Below, piece after piece: positions 1 through 27,603 of a stretch of 32,015 bases of DNA. The notes beneath the pieces are model-generated. The model was not told where the DNA came from. It worked only from the letters and a program-made list of their open reading frames with translations, and ran no database searches. Both the position numbers and the translations under genes were made by a program. The stretch covers positions 1 through 32,015 of the forward strand of contig JACRPZ010000008.1 of the NCBI GenBank assembly GCA_016222905.1. The letters are read 5' to 3'. The stretch comes from Nitrospirota bacterium. GTDB lineage: Bacteria; Nitrospirota; Thermodesulfovibrionia; UBA6902. Every line of letters starts with the position of its first letter. Position 1 is the first letter of the stretch.

Positions 1-71
1 AAAAAATCGTAACAAGGCAAGAAAGTTTAAGTAAAAACAGGAAATAACGATAGACTTATAAAAACAGAAGA

Positions 72-89
72 CGGATTTTAAAAAATCCG
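72..89 (-). terminator. Possible intrinsic terminator after the TIR-STAND gene
   Basis: The arms cggatttt and aaaatccg form a perfect 8-bp inverted repeat around a 2-base centre, 21 bases past the stop codon of the minus-strand TIR-STAND gene. Read on the minus strand, a short T-run (GTTTTTATA) follows about six bases after the stem. The stem is AT-rich and the T-run is not immediately adjacent, so it may be only a weak terminator. Confidence 0.4.
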
Positions 90-110
90 GCATGGAAAAA
101 CTGAAAATCT

Positions 111-2555
111 CTAAATGACTTTTTCAGGAGTCTCAATTTGAAGGTTTTTATTGTACCACATTAACATTCCATGCTTTAATAAAAATGAGGCTGGCGTATT
201 TTCTTTATTGCAGACCTTCTCTATAATTACTGTCAGTTTATTAGAGCCTAAAGATTTCACAATTTTATCAATAAAACCATACACAACAAAGAAATTCATA
301 TTCCAGAATATAATTTTGGACAATTTATCTAACTTTTCTCGACTCAGAGGTCTTGGCTTTTGTTGGTGCTCCTCATTCTTTTTTTCATTATCTTCAATAA
401 TCTTATTTAATCTTTCCGAAATAAATTTAACAAACTCCTGCTGTTCGTCTTCATTTTTTATAAGTTCAAAAAATGATGTTAAAATTCGCAAGTGAACTTT
501 TATAGCTTCTTCGAATATAAATTCAAGTCTTGATTTTTCCAATGATCCAGCACGATTTTTTACTATGTGTCCCATAACCTCAACCGTTTTAATGCTTCTT
601 CTCAATTCCATTGCCAAATTATGTTCACTGTCTCCTTCTTGAGCAATGTTACTTTTTACATCTCCTTTGATTTCTTCATTCATATCTTGAGTTGCTAACC
701 TAGTAGCTCTTTCTTTTTCTGCTGTCGTATCCGTTGGTGGTAAAACTGCCTTAACTATAATATCTACCTGTTTATCAAAAAAACTAAGATCTTCTTTGCT
801 CAATGTTGCAGGTTTATATTTATCAAATAAGCTTGAAGCGTTAAGAATAACTTCATCTAAAATATAGTCATTCTTGGAGTGGTGAGATATAAAAATGGCA
901 ATATAAGCATTTTCGTCTTTATGGAGATTGTTTATAATGAAATTTATAATTTTCTTATTATGCTCAACGTGTTCAGCAAGATACTTTGCGACAAAAAAAT
1001 AATAAAGGTATGGATAGCAGAAACTGTAATTATTAAAACTGTCTAATGCAATTATTTGTGTTTGCTGTAAGTTCTTTAATAGGGTTTCTTTCTTTATAGG
1101 GAAATTATACTTATCAAAATATATCTTCATGAAGGAATTGAATTCATCTATTGAAAGCTCATTCTTCTTTTCTGTATAAAAAAAGAATGCAAACTCCGTA
1201 AGAAAGTTGATATACGTATCTATTTCATCATTTTTCACTCCTTGTTTTCTTAAATACATGTATATAAGAGCTTGATAACAATAGCCTTGTGAAGTAATTT
1301 CTTGCTCAAGTGGTCTTTCAAATGTTTCATAAATACTAATAACAGATAGAATAAAAAAAGGATATGCGGGCATAATGCCACTACCAAAAACCTTGCCTAA
1401 TGCGGCATTAACTAATTCTGTTTTATGATCAATATGTTTGTATATTTCATTTGTATTACGATTACCATCGTACTTTCTATCTGACAGGTGTGTCCATTTA
1501 GTAATCAATTGATTTCTTAATGATGGGATAAATTCCTTTATTTTAAAGCGAGTAAAAGACTTGATAATATTTTCGTCTTTGAAATTTAGGCTAAAAATAT
1601 CATCAACAATAATAATCTGATGACCATATGAGGACAAATCAAGTATATGTCTTTCCTTGTTTTTAGCAAAGTGGAAATCATCCATAATTGGAACTATCCT
1701 TTGCCTATCAATTTCTTCTATTGAAATTGTTTCGTATTGTTCTTTATATGCTTTTGATATTTTATTTTCTATCTTTCCTTCTTGATTGGCTTTGACAGAA
1801 ATATAAACGGGAACATAGTTTTTCTCTCGCAACTCTATAAATATTTTCTTACATAAGGTTGTTTTCCCTGACTGATCTTCTCCCGCTATAAGAATCTTTG
1901 GATAATCACAGAAACCATCTATTAATTTCTCAGAGCTATCCTTTTTCTCGTATTCTCCTAAATCATCATATTTTGCTAATACAGGATAAACAAAGATGTC
2001 CTCTAAAAGAACTTTATCTTTTTGAGAATGGGCTTTAGTTAATAATTCTGTATTTTGCAGAAAAGATAAAAACTGTTCTTTAATGTTTAGTTGTTTGATT
2101 TTAATCTCTTTTTCAATTACATCTTTCAGCCCATTATATACACTATTCCAGGCGTCGTTGGCATCTGTAAATTCTGAAATCGGCTTTCCGTCAGTAGGTA
2201 GAACCAACAATGAAGATAGCTCTTTATCATCTAACCACCCACATTTAGATAAAATAACTGGAACAACCGCAATTCCTTTCTTTTTCTTTAATTCTAAAGC
2301 ATTCTTTTTTTCATTCATACAAGCAGTTGATGAAAGGAAGTTTGCTGAGATAAACAGGCAAACGATGTCTGCTTTTTCCAATTTATTATCTATGTCGTCT
2401 CGATAGTCATAACCTGCTACTATTTTTCGGTCATACCAGTCCTCTATTAAACCATTGGTTTTTAATGGCGCAATATGGATTCTAAAATTATTAATATGTG
2501 CTTCGTCTAAATGCGAATAACTAATAAAAAGTTTTAATTTTTCATTTTGTTTCAT
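111..2555 (-). CDS. TIR domain-STAND NTPase, probable NLR-like immune protein
   Basis: An 814-residue protein with an N-terminal TIR domain (about residues 5-150). The first strand reads KLKLFISYSH, and SSTACMNEKK carries Glu82 at the position expected for the NAD-cleaving glutamate. A P-loop NTPase module follows: Walker A GEDQSGKTT at 225-233, and a Walker B-like VPIMDDF around 288-294, with a second acidic strand IIIVDDI near 314. The remaining ~450 residues look helical and have no recognised repeat. The architecture matches TIR-STAND proteins known as phage sensors that deplete NAD+ when activated; that role is inferred here. The ATG start follows an AGGGGA ribosome-binding site. The gene is AT-rich compared with the housekeeping genes beyond 3.7 kb, which suggests horizontal transfer. 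It lies 197 bp downstream of a second TIR gene on the same strand, so the two may act together. Which ligand it senses cannot be told from sequence. Confidence 0.85.
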   Translation of the reverse strand: MKQNEKLKLFISYSHLDEAHINNFRIHIAPLKTNGLIEDWYDRKIVAGYDYRDDIDNKLEKADIVCLFISANFLSSTACMNEKKNALELKKKKGIAVVPVILSKCGWLDDKELSSLLVLPTDGKPISEFTDANDAWNSVYNGLKDVIEKEIKIKQLNIKEQFLSFLQNTELLTKAHSQKDKVLLEDIFVYPVLAKYDDLGEYEKKDSSEKLIDGFCDYPKILIAGEDQSGKTTLCKKIFIELREKNYVPVYISVKANQEGKIENKISKAYKEQYETISIEEIDRQRIVPIMDDFHFAKNKERHILDLSSYGHQIIIVDDIFSLNFKDENIIKSFTRFKIKEFIPSLRNQLITKWTHLSDRKYDGNRNTNEIYKHIDHKTELVNAALGKVFGSGIMPAYPFFILSVISIYETFERPLEQEITSQGYCYQALIYMYLRKQGVKNDEIDTYINFLTEFAFFFYTEKKNELSIDEFNSFMKIYFDKYNFPIKKETLLKNLQQTQIIALDSFNNYSFCYPYLYYFFVAKYLAEHVEHNKKIINFIINNLHKDENAYIAIFISHHSKNDYILDEVILNASSLFDKYKPATLSKEDLSFFDKQVDIIVKAVLPPTDTTAEKERATRLATQDMNEEIKGDVKSNIAQEGDSEHNLAMELRRSIKTVEVMGHIVKNRAGSLEKSRLEFIFEEAIKVHLRILTSFFELIKNEDEQQEFVKFISERLNKIIEDNEKKNEEHQQKPRPLSREKLDKLSKIIFWNMNFFVVYGFIDKIVKSLGSNKLTVIIEKVCNKENTPASFLLKHGMLMWYNKNLQIETPEKVI

Positions 2556-2752
2556 AATATATTCCCCTATTTCTATTTTTACAGTGAACCCATCAATTTT
2601 AGAAAGAATATGTTACACATGACGCTCAGCGAATCTACCCACTGCAGCTTATCAAAAAGCAAAACAACAATTTATAAACCTCAAACAATTACTGGCTAAA
2701 AAATGCCGCGTAGTTCTATTTCACTGCACTAACGTGTTATGTCCCAGTTTGT

Positions 2753-3553
2753 CTATTCATTCAAAATAAAGCTATCTAGTTTATTTAAAGCATTTAATAA
2801 TGCCATTGCGGAAGATATTGTAATATCAGTACCCACTCCATGACCAACAGCTATTTTTTTGCCTTGCATAAGAGTTACAAAAACTTGACCGAGTTCATGA
2901 TCTCCTATAGTCATTTCTCTTACTTTATACTTCAACAGCTTACTATTAGATTTTGATATTTTCTGAATTGCCTTATAAGTGGCATCTATAGGACCATCAC
3001 CGACTGAAGTCGCTGTTCGTAATTTATCTCTAACTTTTATCTTAACAGTTGTCTTAGGCATTTCATGTGTACCAGTTGTAACACTCATATTTATGAGTTT
3101 GTACGTTACGGGATAATCTATCTTGTCATCGACATAGCCAAGTTTCTCACAGACCAAGTCAGCAACGTTTTCTATTGATTGGTTTCTTAAATCTATATAG
3201 CCAATGGTACTTGCTAATCCAGGGAGAATTGTATCATCAAGGCGCACTGGCAGGATATACTCTTGTGTTATTTCTTGAAGAGCACGCTCTTGGGCGCTTC
3301 TTAATTCATGATTAGTCCAAAGTTTTCTTGCGTAGGAATCTGAAATAATTATAATGCAATAACGTGCACTTGATTTGTAAATAGTGGAAAGATGCTGATA
3401 AAGGTCCTTACCCCAAAGTTGAGCTTTTAAATTTTCATCAAAGAAAACATCAACCCCTTTTTTCTCCAAACAACTTGCAATTGATCGTGCATACTTACGA
3501 TCTTCTCCAGCAAATGATATAACTACGTCATAAGTATAATTAAGATTTTTCAA
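2753..3553 (-). CDS. TIR domain fused to a LeuA-type allosteric dimer domain
   Basis: A 266-residue two-domain protein. Residues 7-140 are a TIR domain: YDVVISFAGEDR opens it, and WTNHELRSA places Glu83 where TIR NADases have their catalytic glutamate. Residues 149-262 match the C-terminal regulatory (LeuA dimer) domain of 2-isopropylmalate/citramalate synthases: SVGDGPIDATYKAI at 183-196, LLKYKV at 206-211, LGQVFVTL at 221-228, and GHGVGTDITISSAMALLNAL at 237-256. In LeuA this domain dimerises and binds the feedback amino acid. The catalytic TIM barrel is absent, so this is not a biosynthetic enzyme. The inferred role is a TIR NADase gated by a small-molecule sensor. The only in-frame start is TTG at 3553, since a TAG lies three codons upstream. 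No strong ribosome-binding site is visible. The gene precedes the TIR-STAND gene on the same strand. Domain calls are firm; ligand and function are unknown. Confidence 0.85.
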   Translation of the reverse strand: MKNLNYTYDVVISFAGEDRKYARSIASCLEKKGVDVFFDENLKAQLWGKDLYQHLSTIYKSSARYCIIIISDSYARKLWTNHELRSAQERALQEITQEYILPVRLDDTILPGLASTIGYIDLRNQSIENVADLVCEKLGYVDDKIDYPVTYKLINMSVTTGTHEMPKTTVKIKVRDKLRTATSVGDGPIDATYKAIQKISKSNSKLLKYKVREMTIGDHELGQVFVTLMQGKKIAVGHGVGTDITISSAMALLNALNKLDSFILNE

Positions 3554-3705
3554 GTTTATCTAATTTATCAAGTCTTGGATGCAATCAATAAACTATACGT
3601 AATAATATACAATTTTATAGACATAACTTTCTGGAGCATGTAGTTGGTGATAGCCAGTTTTTAGATAGCCATAAACCGACCTAATAATATTACCTTTGAG
3701 ACTCT

Positions 3706-5823
3706 TCAAATATCCCTCAACCTAATCTCAAACCCAAACTTCCCTCTTTTATCCCCAGGAATAAAAATAAACGTTGTCCCCTGATATATCTTCTCAATAC
3801 CACCTTCTGAGAGCGAGACAGTCTCAACAGGGAAATGCCACAGGTCAATCGCCGCGTCAAAATCAAAAGTGATGGATACGCCTAGGTATTCATCCTTAAT
3901 GGAGAATGAACGAATCCCCTTACATTCACGGGCTGTGTTTATTGCATAAGGCGCGGACTTCTTTCTTCCGACTAATGTATCAGGGTCAATTGTGATTGTG
4001 GGATAAGGAGAACCCAGAAGCGAGATGTTAAATTCCGTGCAGAAAAATACACCCTCAGGAGAGTTAACATCATACTCCACTCTTATGGAAGGACGGTTAT
4101 CGCTTATGGATATCTTCTTTTTAACAAAAGCAGACGTGCAGAGAACTGTTCCCTCGCTATCAAATTCAGCGGTAAGCAATTTTTTGCTCTTCGCGGTCTT
4201 GACGGCATAAGGCTTCCCCATCTGGTCCCATAGTTCCTGATGAAGCCCATCTTTAAATTGAGCAAAGGTCGTATTCTCAGGAAGGAAGTGATCGATCAGA
4301 GAAGCCTTGCGGCATGGATCAAATATAAGATCGGCTGTTATGCTCTTGTCTTTAAGCTTGATGCTGTCATGTATCGTGCCTGTATCCTGACTATCTATAG
4401 CGCTTAATATTTTTTTATGGTACGGCTCATGCCTTCTACTTAATGTATCCAGTATGTTGACCGCTTTACTCTTGTACGACATTTCACACAGATTGCCGCC
4501 TGCTTCACTAAAAAAGAGGCTTAAATATTTCGTGCTGACAAAGAGGTCATTGTAACCGTCTTTATCAATATCTCCCCTCTTTACTGTAAATGACGCAGGC
4601 GCAATAATATCTTCCGCCAGCTTTTCGGCTTTAAGCATATGCCTGTAAAGCGATGACCGGAGATGCGGCAGATATAAACCGCCGAAAATGCCGTGCCAGT
4701 ACGCGTCATTGCACTGTCCCTGCCAGAGTTCATTCAGCATAGTGCCGGCCTTCTTTATCCCTTTGTGACTCTTATCTGCGGCTTTAACTCTCCTGACCGC
4801 CTGATGGACCTTTCTGCTCACAAAGAACATCCTCTTGTGTATATGATTCGACTCAGGATATTTTGTGAAGAAATTCTTCCAAATACCTCCCCTGAGAAGA
4901 GACTGCGCCTTGCTGCTGCCGAATATCTTTTTCATCTCTTCAAGGTCGCTCTCATACTCTCTCGAGCCATCGGACATCATAGACCATTCCCCCATTTCCC
5001 TGTATGATGCGGTCGGAAGGTATATGCGTCCAAGAGGAGGGTTTTTTGAGATATACTCTTCATAGGTGGTTGTTTCAAGCCAGTCCGAGTTCGCCGCAAG
5101 CGCCTGAAAAAATTGCTCCAGCCAGCCGTCGGTGTAGACAAGCTTGTAAGTGCCGGGCCATATGCCGAACTTCTCGCCGTCATCAGCCATGCTTAGCATC
5201 ACCGGACCGGACTCTTCATACACCATCTTCAAATATGAGATAGCATCTTTTACTTCATGAAACGGGATCCTATAGCGCAACTCCTCGCTGCCCGGAAAAA
5301 TTTTGACTGTGGAGCCTCCGCTTTCAGTGATGTAATATCCGCGGAGCTCTTTCTCGTTCAGGCCCGTGAGTTTGAAGTGGTAATCGTCAACAGGCAGGTA
5401 GGAGACTCCGGCCCTGGCAAGATATTCAGGCATATCCGGCTCCCATACCCTCTCAGCCAGCCACATGCCTTTTGCCTGATACCCTAACTCATCTCTGATA
5501 AAACCGGTGAGTTTCCTGATCTGTCCTGTCCTGTCATTACCGGGAATGGAAGATAAGAGGGGCTCATAAAAACCGCCAGTCAGAAACTCCGCCCGGCGTT
5601 CTCTTGCAAGCGCCTTGAGAGAATCGAGGAACTCCTTGTGATTGGCTTTGATCCATGAAAGAAGGCTGCCTGAATAATGGAGCACAACTTTTATATCAGG
5701 ATGCCTCTCAAGAACTTTTAGAAACGGCAGATACGACTTCTGATATGCCTCTTCAAAGACATTATCAAAGTTTCCAACAGGCTGGTGATTGTGAAAGGCA
5801 AGTATGAGGCGCAGTTTATTCAT
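3706..5823 (-). CDS. GH57 4-alpha-glucanotransferase / alpha-amylase
   Basis: A 705-residue cytoplasmic glycoside hydrolase family 57 enzyme acting on alpha-1,4-glucans such as glycogen or maltodextrin. The N-terminal catalytic domain opens with the family motif FHNHQPVGNF. WLAERVWEPD supplies the nucleophile at Glu124, and MLSMADDGEKFG supplies the acid/base at Asp214. These positions agree within one residue with those of the Thermococcus 4-alpha-glucanotransferase (Glu123/Asp214). The C-terminal half (about 400-705) is the beta-sandwich found in the DUF1925/DUF1926-bearing branch, so glucanotransferase is more likely than pure amylase, though sequence alone does not separate them. There is no signal peptide. 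It is the last gene of the long minus-strand block, separated from mlaD by repeat DNA, and probably has its own promoter. GC content rises clearly here compared with the TIR genes downstream. Confidence 0.9.
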   Translation of the reverse strand: MNKLRLILAFHNHQPVGNFDNVFEEAYQKSYLPFLKVLERHPDIKVVLHYSGSLLSWIKANHKEFLDSLKALARERRAEFLTGGFYEPLLSSIPGNDRTGQIRKLTGFIRDELGYQAKGMWLAERVWEPDMPEYLARAGVSYLPVDDYHFKLTGLNEKELRGYYITESGGSTVKIFPGSEELRYRIPFHEVKDAISYLKMVYEESGPVMLSMADDGEKFGIWPGTYKLVYTDGWLEQFFQALAANSDWLETTTYEEYISKNPPLGRIYLPTASYREMGEWSMMSDGSREYESDLEEMKKIFGSSKAQSLLRGGIWKNFFTKYPESNHIHKRMFFVSRKVHQAVRRVKAADKSHKGIKKAGTMLNELWQGQCNDAYWHGIFGGLYLPHLRSSLYRHMLKAEKLAEDIIAPASFTVKRGDIDKDGYNDLFVSTKYLSLFFSEAGGNLCEMSYKSKAVNILDTLSRRHEPYHKKILSAIDSQDTGTIHDSIKLKDKSITADLIFDPCRKASLIDHFLPENTTFAQFKDGLHQELWDQMGKPYAVKTAKSKKLLTAEFDSEGTVLCTSAFVKKKISISDNRPSIRVEYDVNSPEGVFFCTEFNISLLGSPYPTITIDPDTLVGRKKSAPYAINTARECKGIRSFSIKDEYLGVSITFDFDAAIDLWHFPVETVSLSEGGIEKIYQGTTFIFIPGDKRGKFGFEIRLRDI

Positions 5824-19622: not shown

Positions 19623-20192
19623 TTACCCCTTTTTATCTCCTTCATGCATGAAGAGCAAAAGTATGGTTGAAAGCGCCACAACAGCAGAGGCAAGATAAAA
19701 GAGGTATTTAAGCCCATACAGTTTAACAAGATAGCCGCCGCAAAAAAGGCCCGCCGCTGAAGAAAGGCTCACAAAGGCTTTGAACTTGCCGATACTCTTG
19801 CCCCTCTTCTCCGTCATTGTCAGATCACCCAAGAGAGAAGTGCTTACGGTCTCTCCCACTCCGTTAGTTACGCCGAGAAGGGCCTGAAGAATATATAGCT
19901 GATAGGGTTCAGTTATTACCGTATACATAAAGAGCACGGCTGCATCAGCATAGGCCGTCAGAAAAAGGAATGGTTTTCTGCCTAATTTGTCGGAGAAATG
20001 GCCGGCGAGATATGTGGAACCGGACTGAACCAGAACCATAATGCTGAAGGCCAGGCCAAGCTTCTCTACTCCGCCGCTCAGCCTCTCCACCTGTAACACA
20101 TAAAAAGGACCGATAAACCCCATGACAACCGCCCATAAAGAGCTTACGGTCGTAAATAATATAAGATTATTTCTGGCTGACTCAGAGTTCAA
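19623..20192 (-). CDS. Half-size (six-helix) MFS transporter, possible peptide exporter
   Basis: A 189-residue membrane protein equal to the N-terminal half of a major facilitator transporter. It has six predicted helices. The loop after the second helix carries motif A-like GHFSDKLGRKP at about 64-74, and GVTNGVGETVSTSLLGDL lies in helices 4-5. It ends in LLLFMHEGDKKG, where the central loop of a 12-helix MFS protein would begin. The def gene follows after only 79 bp, so there is no room for a second half even in another frame. It is either a half-transporter that dimerises or a stable truncation. The TTG start overlaps the maturase stop (TTGA), which ties it to the precursor-maturase operon. 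Export of the modified peptide is inferred from position. Confidence 0.75.
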   Translation of the reverse strand: MNSESARNNLILFTTVSSLWAVVMGFIGPFYVLQVERLSGGVEKLGLAFSIMVLVQSGSTYLAGHFSDKLGRKPFLFLTAYADAAVLFMYTVITEPYQLYILQALLGVTNGVGETVSTSLLGDLTMTEKRGKSIGKFKAFVSLSSAAGLFCGGYLVKLYGLKYLFYLASAVVALSTILLLFMHEGDKKG

Positions 20193-21493
20193 CTGTTGTC
20201 AATCTCCGGAGTATACTTTATATCCTGCAGAATAAATGCCTCTAAAGTGGCATCGAGGTACGGCTTTTTGCAATCCACACCATCTATCTGCCCGTCCCTG
20301 AGCAGCTTCATAAACCTGCACCCTCCATAACATATAGGGAGGTATGCACATTCAAGACATTCCTGTCTCTTCCATATATCAAGCCTGTGCGACTCCCTGT
20401 AGTCAGTTATGCCTCTCTGCAGGTCACCGGCTTCAAGCCCCTGCCAGCCTATAAGCGCCGGGCATTTGTAAAAGGTCCCGTTATAGTTAACTACAATATC
20501 ATCCTTATTTTCTATCATACACGTGGACGGCATGATCCTGAGGGTCTGAAAGCCTCTCTTCAGAATCTCCTCCCTCAAAAAAAGGCTCGCCTCAAAGACC
20601 CACGGCTCATTAATGGATTCAGTCCCGTCCCTGAAATCAGGCAGTGCAACCTCCTTGCGGGGTTGAGTCACAGGGTCAAATTTCACATAAGATATCTTAT
20701 CCGGTGTTATCCCGTGATCAATAAGATAGTCAAGAAGGCGGGGAAAGTCTTTATAGTTCTCTTGTGTATAATTGCCGCCTATCTGGATGCCGATATTCCC
20801 GCAGGCATTCCTGATATTCCTTATAATTATGTCAAAACTGCCTGAACCTGATTTAAAGGGCCTGAACCTGTCATGGTTTCCCTTTAAACCATCAACCGTT
20901 ATTTTTGCATCCATAAGCCCGAGCGATGCCAGTTCCTTTGCTCTCTTTGCGGTCAGGAGCGTCCCGTTGGTCACGAGGTTAAAGGTATACGCCAGTCCCA
21001 GTTCTCCTGCCAAGGCCCTCAGCTTCTCTGAGATATACTTGATAAGCTCATAACTGAGGAGCGGCTCTCCTCCATAGAAGTCAAAATGGACCTTTTTGCC
21101 ATTGGAAAGATAACGGTCCTCGGTAAAGCTTATCAGAGCATCCGCTGTATCACGAGACATATAGTGTTTCCCCTTCATCATGCCTTCATAACAGTAAGTA
21201 CAGCGCAGATTGCAGTCAAGGTTCATGACGACAAGGGCGCTAAATGCTTTTCTCTCTCTATTTGCCGTGTCAATCGAGCGCAGCATCTCATTCTTCTCCT
21301 CATCAGGATCATCAACCAGGAAGCCGAGATCAAATAGAGTGTCGGCATCAGAAGGCTCAAGATTTCCGTCTTCAACTGCCTTTAATGTGGATTCAGGGAC
21401 AAGGGCGCTTGAGGCCTTTTTTGTGGAATACAGGAGGAGATAACCGGGTTCTTCATGATACGGGAATATCTTTATGTAATTCGATAACTTCAT
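20189..21493 (-). CDS. Radical SAM/SPASM peptide maturase (geopeptide-maturase type)
   Basis: A 434-residue radical SAM enzyme. Residues 1-62 form a small N-terminal domain (PGYLLLYSTKKASSALVP) of the kind that may bind the leader peptide. The radical SAM core holds CNLRCTYC (Cys94, Cys98, Cys101) for the [4Fe-4S]-SAM cluster, and FYGGEPLLS and LVTNGTLL for SAM binding. The C-terminal SPASM domain has Cys325, Cys344, Cys379, Cys382, Cys388, Cys392 and Cys408 for auxiliary clusters. The sequence resembles what I recall of the putative geopeptide maturases of Geobacter. It is preceded by a 31-residue peptide gene and overlaps the half-MFS gene by 4 nt, so the likely job is to modify that peptide, perhaps by a thioether or carbon crosslink at its cysteines. 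The ATG lacks a clear ribosome-binding site and follows a terminator-like hairpin closely. Confidence 0.9.
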   Translation of the reverse strand: MKLSNYIKIFPYHEEPGYLLLYSTKKASSALVPESTLKAVEDGNLEPSDADTLFDLGFLVDDPDEEKNEMLRSIDTANRERKAFSALVVMNLDCNLRCTYCYEGMMKGKHYMSRDTADALISFTEDRYLSNGKKVHFDFYGGEPLLSYELIKYISEKLRALAGELGLAYTFNLVTNGTLLTAKRAKELASLGLMDAKITVDGLKGNHDRFRPFKSGSGSFDIIIRNIRNACGNIGIQIGGNYTQENYKDFPRLLDYLIDHGITPDKISYVKFDPVTQPRKEVALPDFRDGTESINEPWVFEASLFLREEILKRGFQTLRIMPSTCMIENKDDIVVNYNGTFYKCPALIGWQGLEAGDLQRGITDYRESHRLDIWKRQECLECAYLPICYGGCRFMKLLRDGQIDGVDCKKPYLDATLEAFILQDIKYTPEIDNS

Positions 21494-26893: not shown

Positions 26894-27163
26894 ATGGCAA
26901 CAAAAGAGGTGACCATTACTGATGGTAAAAAGGGGTTCACGGGGCTTATAAAAGAGTCTGTGGCTAACAATGAAGATATTGTCATTACGAAGAGGGGACG
27001 GCCTGTTGCCGTCCTTTTGCCTTATAAAGAATATGCAGACCTGAGAAAGTTGAGAACTTATCTCAAGATGCTTGAAATTTCTACGGAAATGAATAAAACA
27101 GGCATTAAGGCAAAAAATGTTTATGCGGCATCAAAGAAAGAACTTGAAGGAAGAGGGCTGTGA
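26894..27163 (+). CDS. Phd/YefM-family antitoxin
   Basis: An 89-residue type II antitoxin. The N-terminal Phd/YefM fold (residues 1-60) shows the usual pattern: a short strand, a helix (FTGLIKESVANN), then DIVITKRGRPVAVLLPYKEY. This part dimerises and binds the operator. The charged C-terminal helix (about 60-89) would wrap the toxin. A strong AGGAGG ribosome-binding site lies 7 bases upstream of the ATG. The stop overlaps the toxin GTG (GTGA), giving coupled translation with antitoxin first. Confidence 0.9.
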   Translation: MATKEVTITDGKKGFTGLIKESVANNEDIVITKRGRPVAVLLPYKEYADLRKLRTYLKMLEISTEMNKTGIKAKNVYAASKKELEGRGL

Positions 27164-27603
27164 TTATAGTAATTGATTCAGGAGTTTTACTTAAAGCCTA
27201 TTTCCCGGATGAAGAGGGGCATAGAGAAGCGCAAAGCCTTATCCGTGACTATGCAAAGGGAGACATCATATTTCATGCTCCAACACTTATTACCTACGAA
27301 ATAATCAATGCCTGTCTTGTTGCATCGAGGATGGCCCGCTTTCCAAAGACAAGGGCAAAAGAGTTAATGAATGAAATGCTCGGTATCGAGATTGTCACAG
27401 AAGACATTGAACGCTTAAAAGAGAGAATTTTTGATATATCTATAAAACACAGCAGAAGCGCATATGATGCAGCCTATATAGCCCTTGCCGAGTCACGAAA
27501 TCTGCCTTTCATCACAGCCGACAAGAAGCTCTTTAATAGCCTGAAGAAAGATTTTGCCTTCGTGAATTGGATAGAGAATTATCCTCATGCATTGAATAAG
27601 TGA
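27160..27603 (+). CDS. vapC: PIN-domain toxin, VapC family
   Basis: A 147-residue PIN-domain ribonuclease. The acidic metal-binding set is complete: Asp6 in VIDSGVLLKAY, Glu47 in TLITYEIINA, Asp103 in SAYDAAYIALA and Asp121 in FITADKKL. VapC toxins commonly cut tRNA or rRNA loops; the target here is unknown. The start is GTG, overlapping the antitoxin stop by 4 nt. The following 159-bp gap (27604-27762) contains a 13-bp sequence shared with 19613-19625 and nothing else I recognise. Confidence 0.88.
   Translation: MIIVIDSGVLLKAYFPDEEGHREAQSLIRDYAKGDIIFHAPTLITYEIINACLVASRMARFPKTRAKELMNEMLGIEIVTEDIERLKERIFDISIKHSRSAYDAAYIALAESRNLPFITADKKLFNSLKKDFAFVNWIENYPHALNK

Follow-up and report, generated by a model that had tools for sequence, protein, structure and literature searches.

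In-frame fusion of a TIR domain with a LeuA-type regulatory domain: a possible ligand- or assembly-controlled NADase

Introduction

The active site of TIR NADases forms between neighbouring TIR domains, and the best-studied ligand-gated bacterial TIRs respond to purpose-made nucleotide messengers. In its parent enzymes, the regulatory domain of LeuA forms dimers and has an amino acid as its ligand. In a window of 32,015 nucleotides, the whole stretch of DNA that was analysed, both kinds of domain are encoded by one gene (2753..3553, minus strand), here called TIR-LeuA. This raises the question of what a TIR effector might do with a domain from amino-acid feedback control. The original prediction had been a TIR effector gated by a leucine-like or other small ligand, or by a metabolite altered by phage.

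Results and Discussion

One reading frame encodes a TIR and a LeuA regulatory domain

The gene is a single open frame without Ns that codes for 266 amino acids from a TTG start, two codons past an in-frame stop. Pfam assigned a TIR_2 domain to the N-terminal and a LeuA_dimer domain to the C-terminal part, and a structure model calculated with AlphaFold placed a low-confidence linker (residues 143–147) between the halves. The motifs quoted in the original prediction were found as written on this strand. An HMGL-like TIM-barrel catalytic domain was absent from the 266 residues according to Pfam, and full-length NCBIfam LeuA models matched the C-terminal half only, far below their cut-offs. TIR-LeuA is therefore not an isopropylmalate synthase. 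The general design, a TIR with a small-molecule regulatory domain, is already known; the pairing with LeuA_dimer (PF08502) found no mention in the literature searched and appears to be undescribed.

The TIR domain covers residues 10–130 (3164..3526, minus strand) and matched TIR_2 with an E-value of 4.4e-21. Its best solved relative by sequence was AbTIR, to which Foldseek gave a fold match with a TM-score of 0.76, normalised to the target. Glu83, proposed earlier to sit at the catalytic position, aligned with the glutamate of WTNYEL in AbTIR and of WTEYEL in a second TIR structure (7uxr). Of 116 TIR segments from the subfamily, which were aligned from fetched loci, 115 have E at this position; like Trp79, Trp47 and Asp39, Glu83 is nearly invariant among them. 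AbTIR (7uwg/7uxu/8g83) thus has a good fold match and the glutamate motif in common with TIR-LeuA, whereas the match spans the TIR half only and the matched AbTIR sequence has no counterpart of the LeuA domain. ThsB-like TIRs also matched this half, and no ThsA was noticed among the open reading frames of the window, at whose position 1 the contig begins. Thoeris-type TIRs produce signals rather than merely depleting NAD, and a signal-making TIR instead of simple NAD depletion is a Thoeris-like alternative for TIR-LeuA.

The LeuA allosteric (dimerisation) domain extends over residues 148–259 (2777..3112, minus strand). It matched PF08502 with an E-value of 2.2e-28 and 99.2 bits against a curated cut-off of 24.9. 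The whole-protein AlphaFold model, based on an alignment of 25 LeuA and 5 TIR rows, had a mean pLDDT of 83 and displayed a TIR fold in the N-terminal half; its pTM of 0.57 is low, and the relative placement of the two domains is therefore not predicted. The LeuA half folded into two β-β-β-α units with strands at residues 151–161, 164–174 and 177–184 and a helix at 188–200, followed by strands at 205–214, 222–230 and 233–241 and a helix at 244–263. Top Foldseek matches were the regulatory domains of leucine-bound MtLeuA (3fig) and isoleucine-bound LiCMS (3f6g/3f6h), all with E-values below 1e-6; MtLeuA 1sr9 was matched as well. When modelled alone, the LeuA half reached a pLDDT of 85 and a pTM of 0.80, and only MtLeuA and LiCMS chains matched below an E-value of 1e-6, the latter with TM-scores of up to 0.80. 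The half keeps 35 of the 54 positions that are strongly conserved (at least 85%) among 55 LeuA domains compared. Since these positions as well as glycine and pocket residues are retained, it represents a folded domain rather than debris. The TIR domain with its glutamate and the LeuA pattern of the C-terminal half were hence both recovered by significant profile and fold matches, and the gene lies outside a leucine operon. Like the regulatory domains of LeuA and citramalate synthase (1sr9, 3fig, 3f6g/h), the C-terminal half combines this fold with a GDGP motif and several pocket residues. Unlike these enzymes, it comes without TIM-barrel or linker subdomains and is attached to a TIR, and its pocket loop and two contact positions are changed.

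The pocket loop is remodelled on a retained fold

In MtLeuA, leucine is contacted by L535, A536, V551, Y554, A558, A565 and A567, and changes of G531, G533 or A536 abolished feedback in yeast (PMC2704214). A profile alignment to 1sr9, which has a weak local score (domain E-value 0.13) and good anchors (GDGP/GNGP, LxxY and the D-A loop), assigned these contacts to I189, D190, L206, Y209, E213, E220 and G222 of TIR-LeuA and the two glycines to G185 and G187. I189, L206 and Y209 of the pocket shell as well as G185/G187 are kept or conservatively exchanged. D190 is ordinary for bacterial-type LeuAs, as Asp is also present in the LeuAs aligned at the position of Ala536, and Gly222 at the A567 position is the residue of most of them. 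Changes are found in a segment comprising residues 207–222 (LKYKVREMTIGDHELG; 2888..2935, minus strand). Here, Glu213 and Glu220 occupy the positions of A558 and A565, where LeuAs carry small residues. All 55 LeuA domains compared have Asp at position 219 and Ala at position 220, and TIR-LeuA has H219 and E220. Judged from the alignment, the pocket loop is remodelled on a retained LeuA fold, because the 35 conserved positions are kept while the D-A loop became H-E.

The replacement of small residues by Glu213 and Glu220 at leucine-contact positions makes a plain leucine sensor unlikely, and leucine gating as put forward in the original prediction is not supported as stated. Given the two new glutamates, a ligand of the domain would probably not be leucine in its usual pose; the same residues could also mean that the pocket has lost all binding.

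A proposed switch and its competitors

The reading that we prefer, and which we consider about equally likely to hold or to fail, is a TIR NADase under ligand or assembly control by a repurposed LeuA module, acting as a single-protein switch of immune type. It draws on the identity and fold of both domains, the retained glutamate, the pocket substitutions, the foreign base composition and the defence-like neighbour. The N-terminal TIR, derived from a modular bacterial subfamily, would be the NAD-cleaving effector. The LeuA-type domain, freed from its parent enzyme, would pair two protomers, and a small ligand at the amino-acid pocket would set the arrangement of the two TIRs, by which the composite NADase site would be formed or blocked. 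This ligand would probably be another amino acid or a metabolite, the level of which changes in infection or stress.

We favour such control because the LeuA domain fits the role of the ligand-binding partner domains in Cat1 and PycTIR. Cat1, a TIR-CARF protein of type III CRISPR systems, likewise combines a short TIR with a ligand-binding domain that is dimeric. Its CARF dimers stack around cA4, and this ligand-driven assembly makes the NADase site (PMC12162218), as we propose for TIR-LeuA. CARF binds cA4 made by Cas10, whereas the putative sensor of TIR-LeuA is an amino-acid regulatory domain. In PycTIR, the CNBD-TIR protein of Pycsar, cUMP leads to dimerisation and filaments (PMC11224242); here too, a ligand domain of metabolic-regulator type governs TIR oligomerisation. 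Unlike in TIR-LeuA, the CNBD is N-terminal, binds cUMP and is accompanied by a partner cyclase gene; in the window, we saw no gene for a signal synthase. Cyanobacterial TIR-GUN4 proteins (L034, L050; PMC7159879) carry a TIR of the same subfamily with 50–53% identity, followed as in TIR-LeuA by a domain taken from metabolic feedback control. GUN4 is a separate domain family that binds tetrapyrroles, and tetrapyrrole regulation or allostery of the GUN4-TIR fusions was proposed, not demonstrated (PMC7159879).

In a more specific form, which we advance only tentatively, an immune TIR NADase would be gated by an amino-acid feedback domain with a pocket retuned to a new metabolite. It would then directly sense either the metabolic state or a small molecule that a phage has altered, with no second-messenger synthase dedicated to it. 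If true, a TIR wired to such a domain would represent immunity that senses central metabolism itself, and TIR-LeuA would be a compact protein for testing ligand, assembly and NADase activity together.

The chief competitor of the ligand- or assembly-controlled switch is a dimeriser that works without a ligand. The LeuA half would then be a constitutive scaffold that lost ligand binding, and sensing would fall to another component, such as a protein of the phage or the TIR-STAND protein encoded 197 bp downstream. A pocket loop altered so strongly on a kept core, with H-E in place of the D-A of all 55 LeuAs and Glu213 at the A558 position, would be expected of such a scaffold, and the very long branch of the LeuA half relative to LeuAs in our trees points in the same direction. 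We nevertheless regard it as rather unlikely, since a pure dimeriser would not need the pocket-lining or pocket-framing GDGP motif, L206, Y209 and GxGTDI stretch, all of which are retained, and co-occurrence with a STAND protein was not observed elsewhere, no STAND-region partner being found near other TIRs of the subfamily.

The signal might still be leucine or isoleucine, to which LeuA and citramalate synthase respond, with the TIR reading the levels of branched-chain amino acids. The fold matches to leucine-bound 3fig and isoleucine-bound 3f6g/h and the preservation of several hydrophobic contact positions are consistent with this possibility, but the glutamates at two of the leucine contacts, including the position that is Ala in 55 of 55 LeuA domains, render it quite improbable.

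Base composition and origin of the fusion

TIR-LeuA and the neighbouring TIR-STAND gene are located in an AT-rich accessory segment (1..3700; 31% GC) at the end of the contig. GC3 values of 25% for the TIR half, about 24% for the LeuA half and 26% for the TIR-STAND gene compare with 44–52% in the nearby host genes measured. GC contents by codon position were 48/34/25 and 44/34/23 in the two halves and 51/38/49 in the host LeuA domain. The composition of the fusion gene is thus foreign to its host. A separate complete leuA is present in the host genome (contig C44). Its product shares 46% identity with the LeuA half, and a long DNA match between the two was not found. With this missing match and the differing composition, a recent capture of the host leuA appears unlikely, and so does an assembly seam, as the halves are in frame, free of Ns and alike in GC by codon position.

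At the protein level, the LeuA half has its nearest relatives among LeuAs of its own class (40–48% identity, compared to 27–37% for five LeuA domains from other phyla). The attachment of the half in trees shifts with sampling, from host-family LeuAs in one tree to another family in a larger sampling, and an origin within the class is therefore not claimed. We infer that TIR-LeuA is an old, horizontally moved fusion with a source LeuA from the same or a related lineage.

The proximity to own-class LeuAs and a pocket that has changed within a preserved shape would also suit an integrated decoy, a reading that parallels the integrated domains of plant NLR receptors. The LeuA half would mimic host LeuA, and a LeuA-binding phage factor or other factor would trip the TIR instead. 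The shifting tree placement and the base composition unlike that of host leuA argue against it, we know of no phage factor that targets LeuA, and we consider a decoy very unlikely. Still less credit is due to the idea of a functionless gene, whether a fusion that arose by chance or is decaying or a chimera of the assembly: the single example in all collections searched and the nearby contig end would allow it, but both halves are joined in frame without Ns, resemble each other and not the host LeuA domain in GC by codon position, lack a long DNA match to host leuA and preserve the conserved LeuA core.

A widespread TIR subfamily and a single TIR-LeuA

The search for a second TIR-LeuA covered about 1,650 whole genomes, a figure in which some genomes are included repeatedly. 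None was detected in the host's own order (47 genomes), class (230) and phylum sample (296), or in Bacteroidota (296), Pseudomonadota (398), Cyanobacteriota (214) and a Poribacteria-centred group (85). Plasmid collections, phage collections and IMG/VR contained none either, and a LeuA-side scan of IMG/VR revealed no relative. For a scan of 84,980 species, TIR peptide patterns were used with a confirming sequence that included the LeuA half, so that a true fusion ranks first. It returned 398 stretches and no TIR-LeuA among the best 80 of 343 relatives; divergent examples may exist, because the patterns are exact and the best 80 of 343 relatives are listed. A LeuA domain beside a TIR was encoded at none of the fetched loci. 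Short-frame LeuA matches in two genomes were discarded, their frames being cut by contig ends. As TIR-LeuA is the single example found, its function lacks support from conservation or co-occurrence.

The TIR subfamily itself is widespread and modular. Elsewhere it is fused to EAD1 in Scytonema, to the tetrapyrrole-binding regulator GUN4 in cyanobacteria, to TPR repeats in a Poribacterium and to many unclassified tails. Joined to such different modules, the TIR behaves as a swappable plug-in effector, and the subfamily takes up regulatory domains from biosynthetic pathways, GUN4 and now LeuA. The host genome encodes a third TIR protein of 370 aa (G000:C55:37411-37746, L180) with a different C-terminal half. 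Dozens of Aquimarina species have one closely similar TIR protein each (L051, L053-L055, L057-L059 and further loci up to L123), in which the TIR is followed by a tail; for the tail of L051, a weak macroglobulin-like match was obtained. This gene is unusually constant for a TIR and may belong to the core genome of the genus. A zinc-ribbon-like CPxC tail (ECPACGTVQLLSE type) recurs after TIRs of the subfamily (L032, L043, L045, L056, L078, L100, L126) in viral contigs as well as genomes, and gave no Pfam match where scanned (L078). Subfamily TIR genes are often found near a second TIR gene (L032 7114-8399, L036 1505-3417, L060, L106), as is the case in the window.

Genes surrounding TIR-LeuA

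The gene downstream of TIR-LeuA (111..2555, minus strand) encodes a TIR-nSTAND4 protein of 814 aa, a candidate anti-phage protein. Pfam reported TIR_2 (2.2e-12) and nSTAND_NTPase4 (4.9e-11), and PADLOC reported PDC-S60 (3.9e-69). Residues 148–809 matched NCBIfam DS8_antiphage with an E-value of 1.4e-133 and 447 bits, below the curated cut-off of 790, which by sequence classifies the protein as a DS-8/PDC-S60 relative by its STAND region and not as a full equivalog. These matches give TIR-LeuA surroundings that resemble a defence locus, in agreement with the original idea of a TIR effector joined to a regulatory domain of LeuA type. Because strand and base composition are common to both TIR genes, they likely constitute a defence cluster, and the two proteins may be functionally linked. 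The TIR of the STAND protein stands in place of the N-terminal region of the DS-8 model, suggesting effector swapping on its STAND sensor.

Upstream of TIR-LeuA, a gene of the GH57 alpha-amylase/4-alpha-glucanotransferase type (3706-5823, minus strand) has a host-like GC content; no counterpart turned up in the 36 other family genomes that were searched. The GH57 gene is followed by genes that, from their translations, we take to be mla, rod and mre homologues. At 19623-21493 (minus strand), the gene of a radical SAM protein (434 aa) overlaps that of a 189-aa MFS-type protein, about half the usual size of an MFS transporter. Overlapping genes for a Phd/YefM antitoxin and a PIN-domain toxin at 26894-27603 (plus strand) probably form a type II toxin-antitoxin pair.
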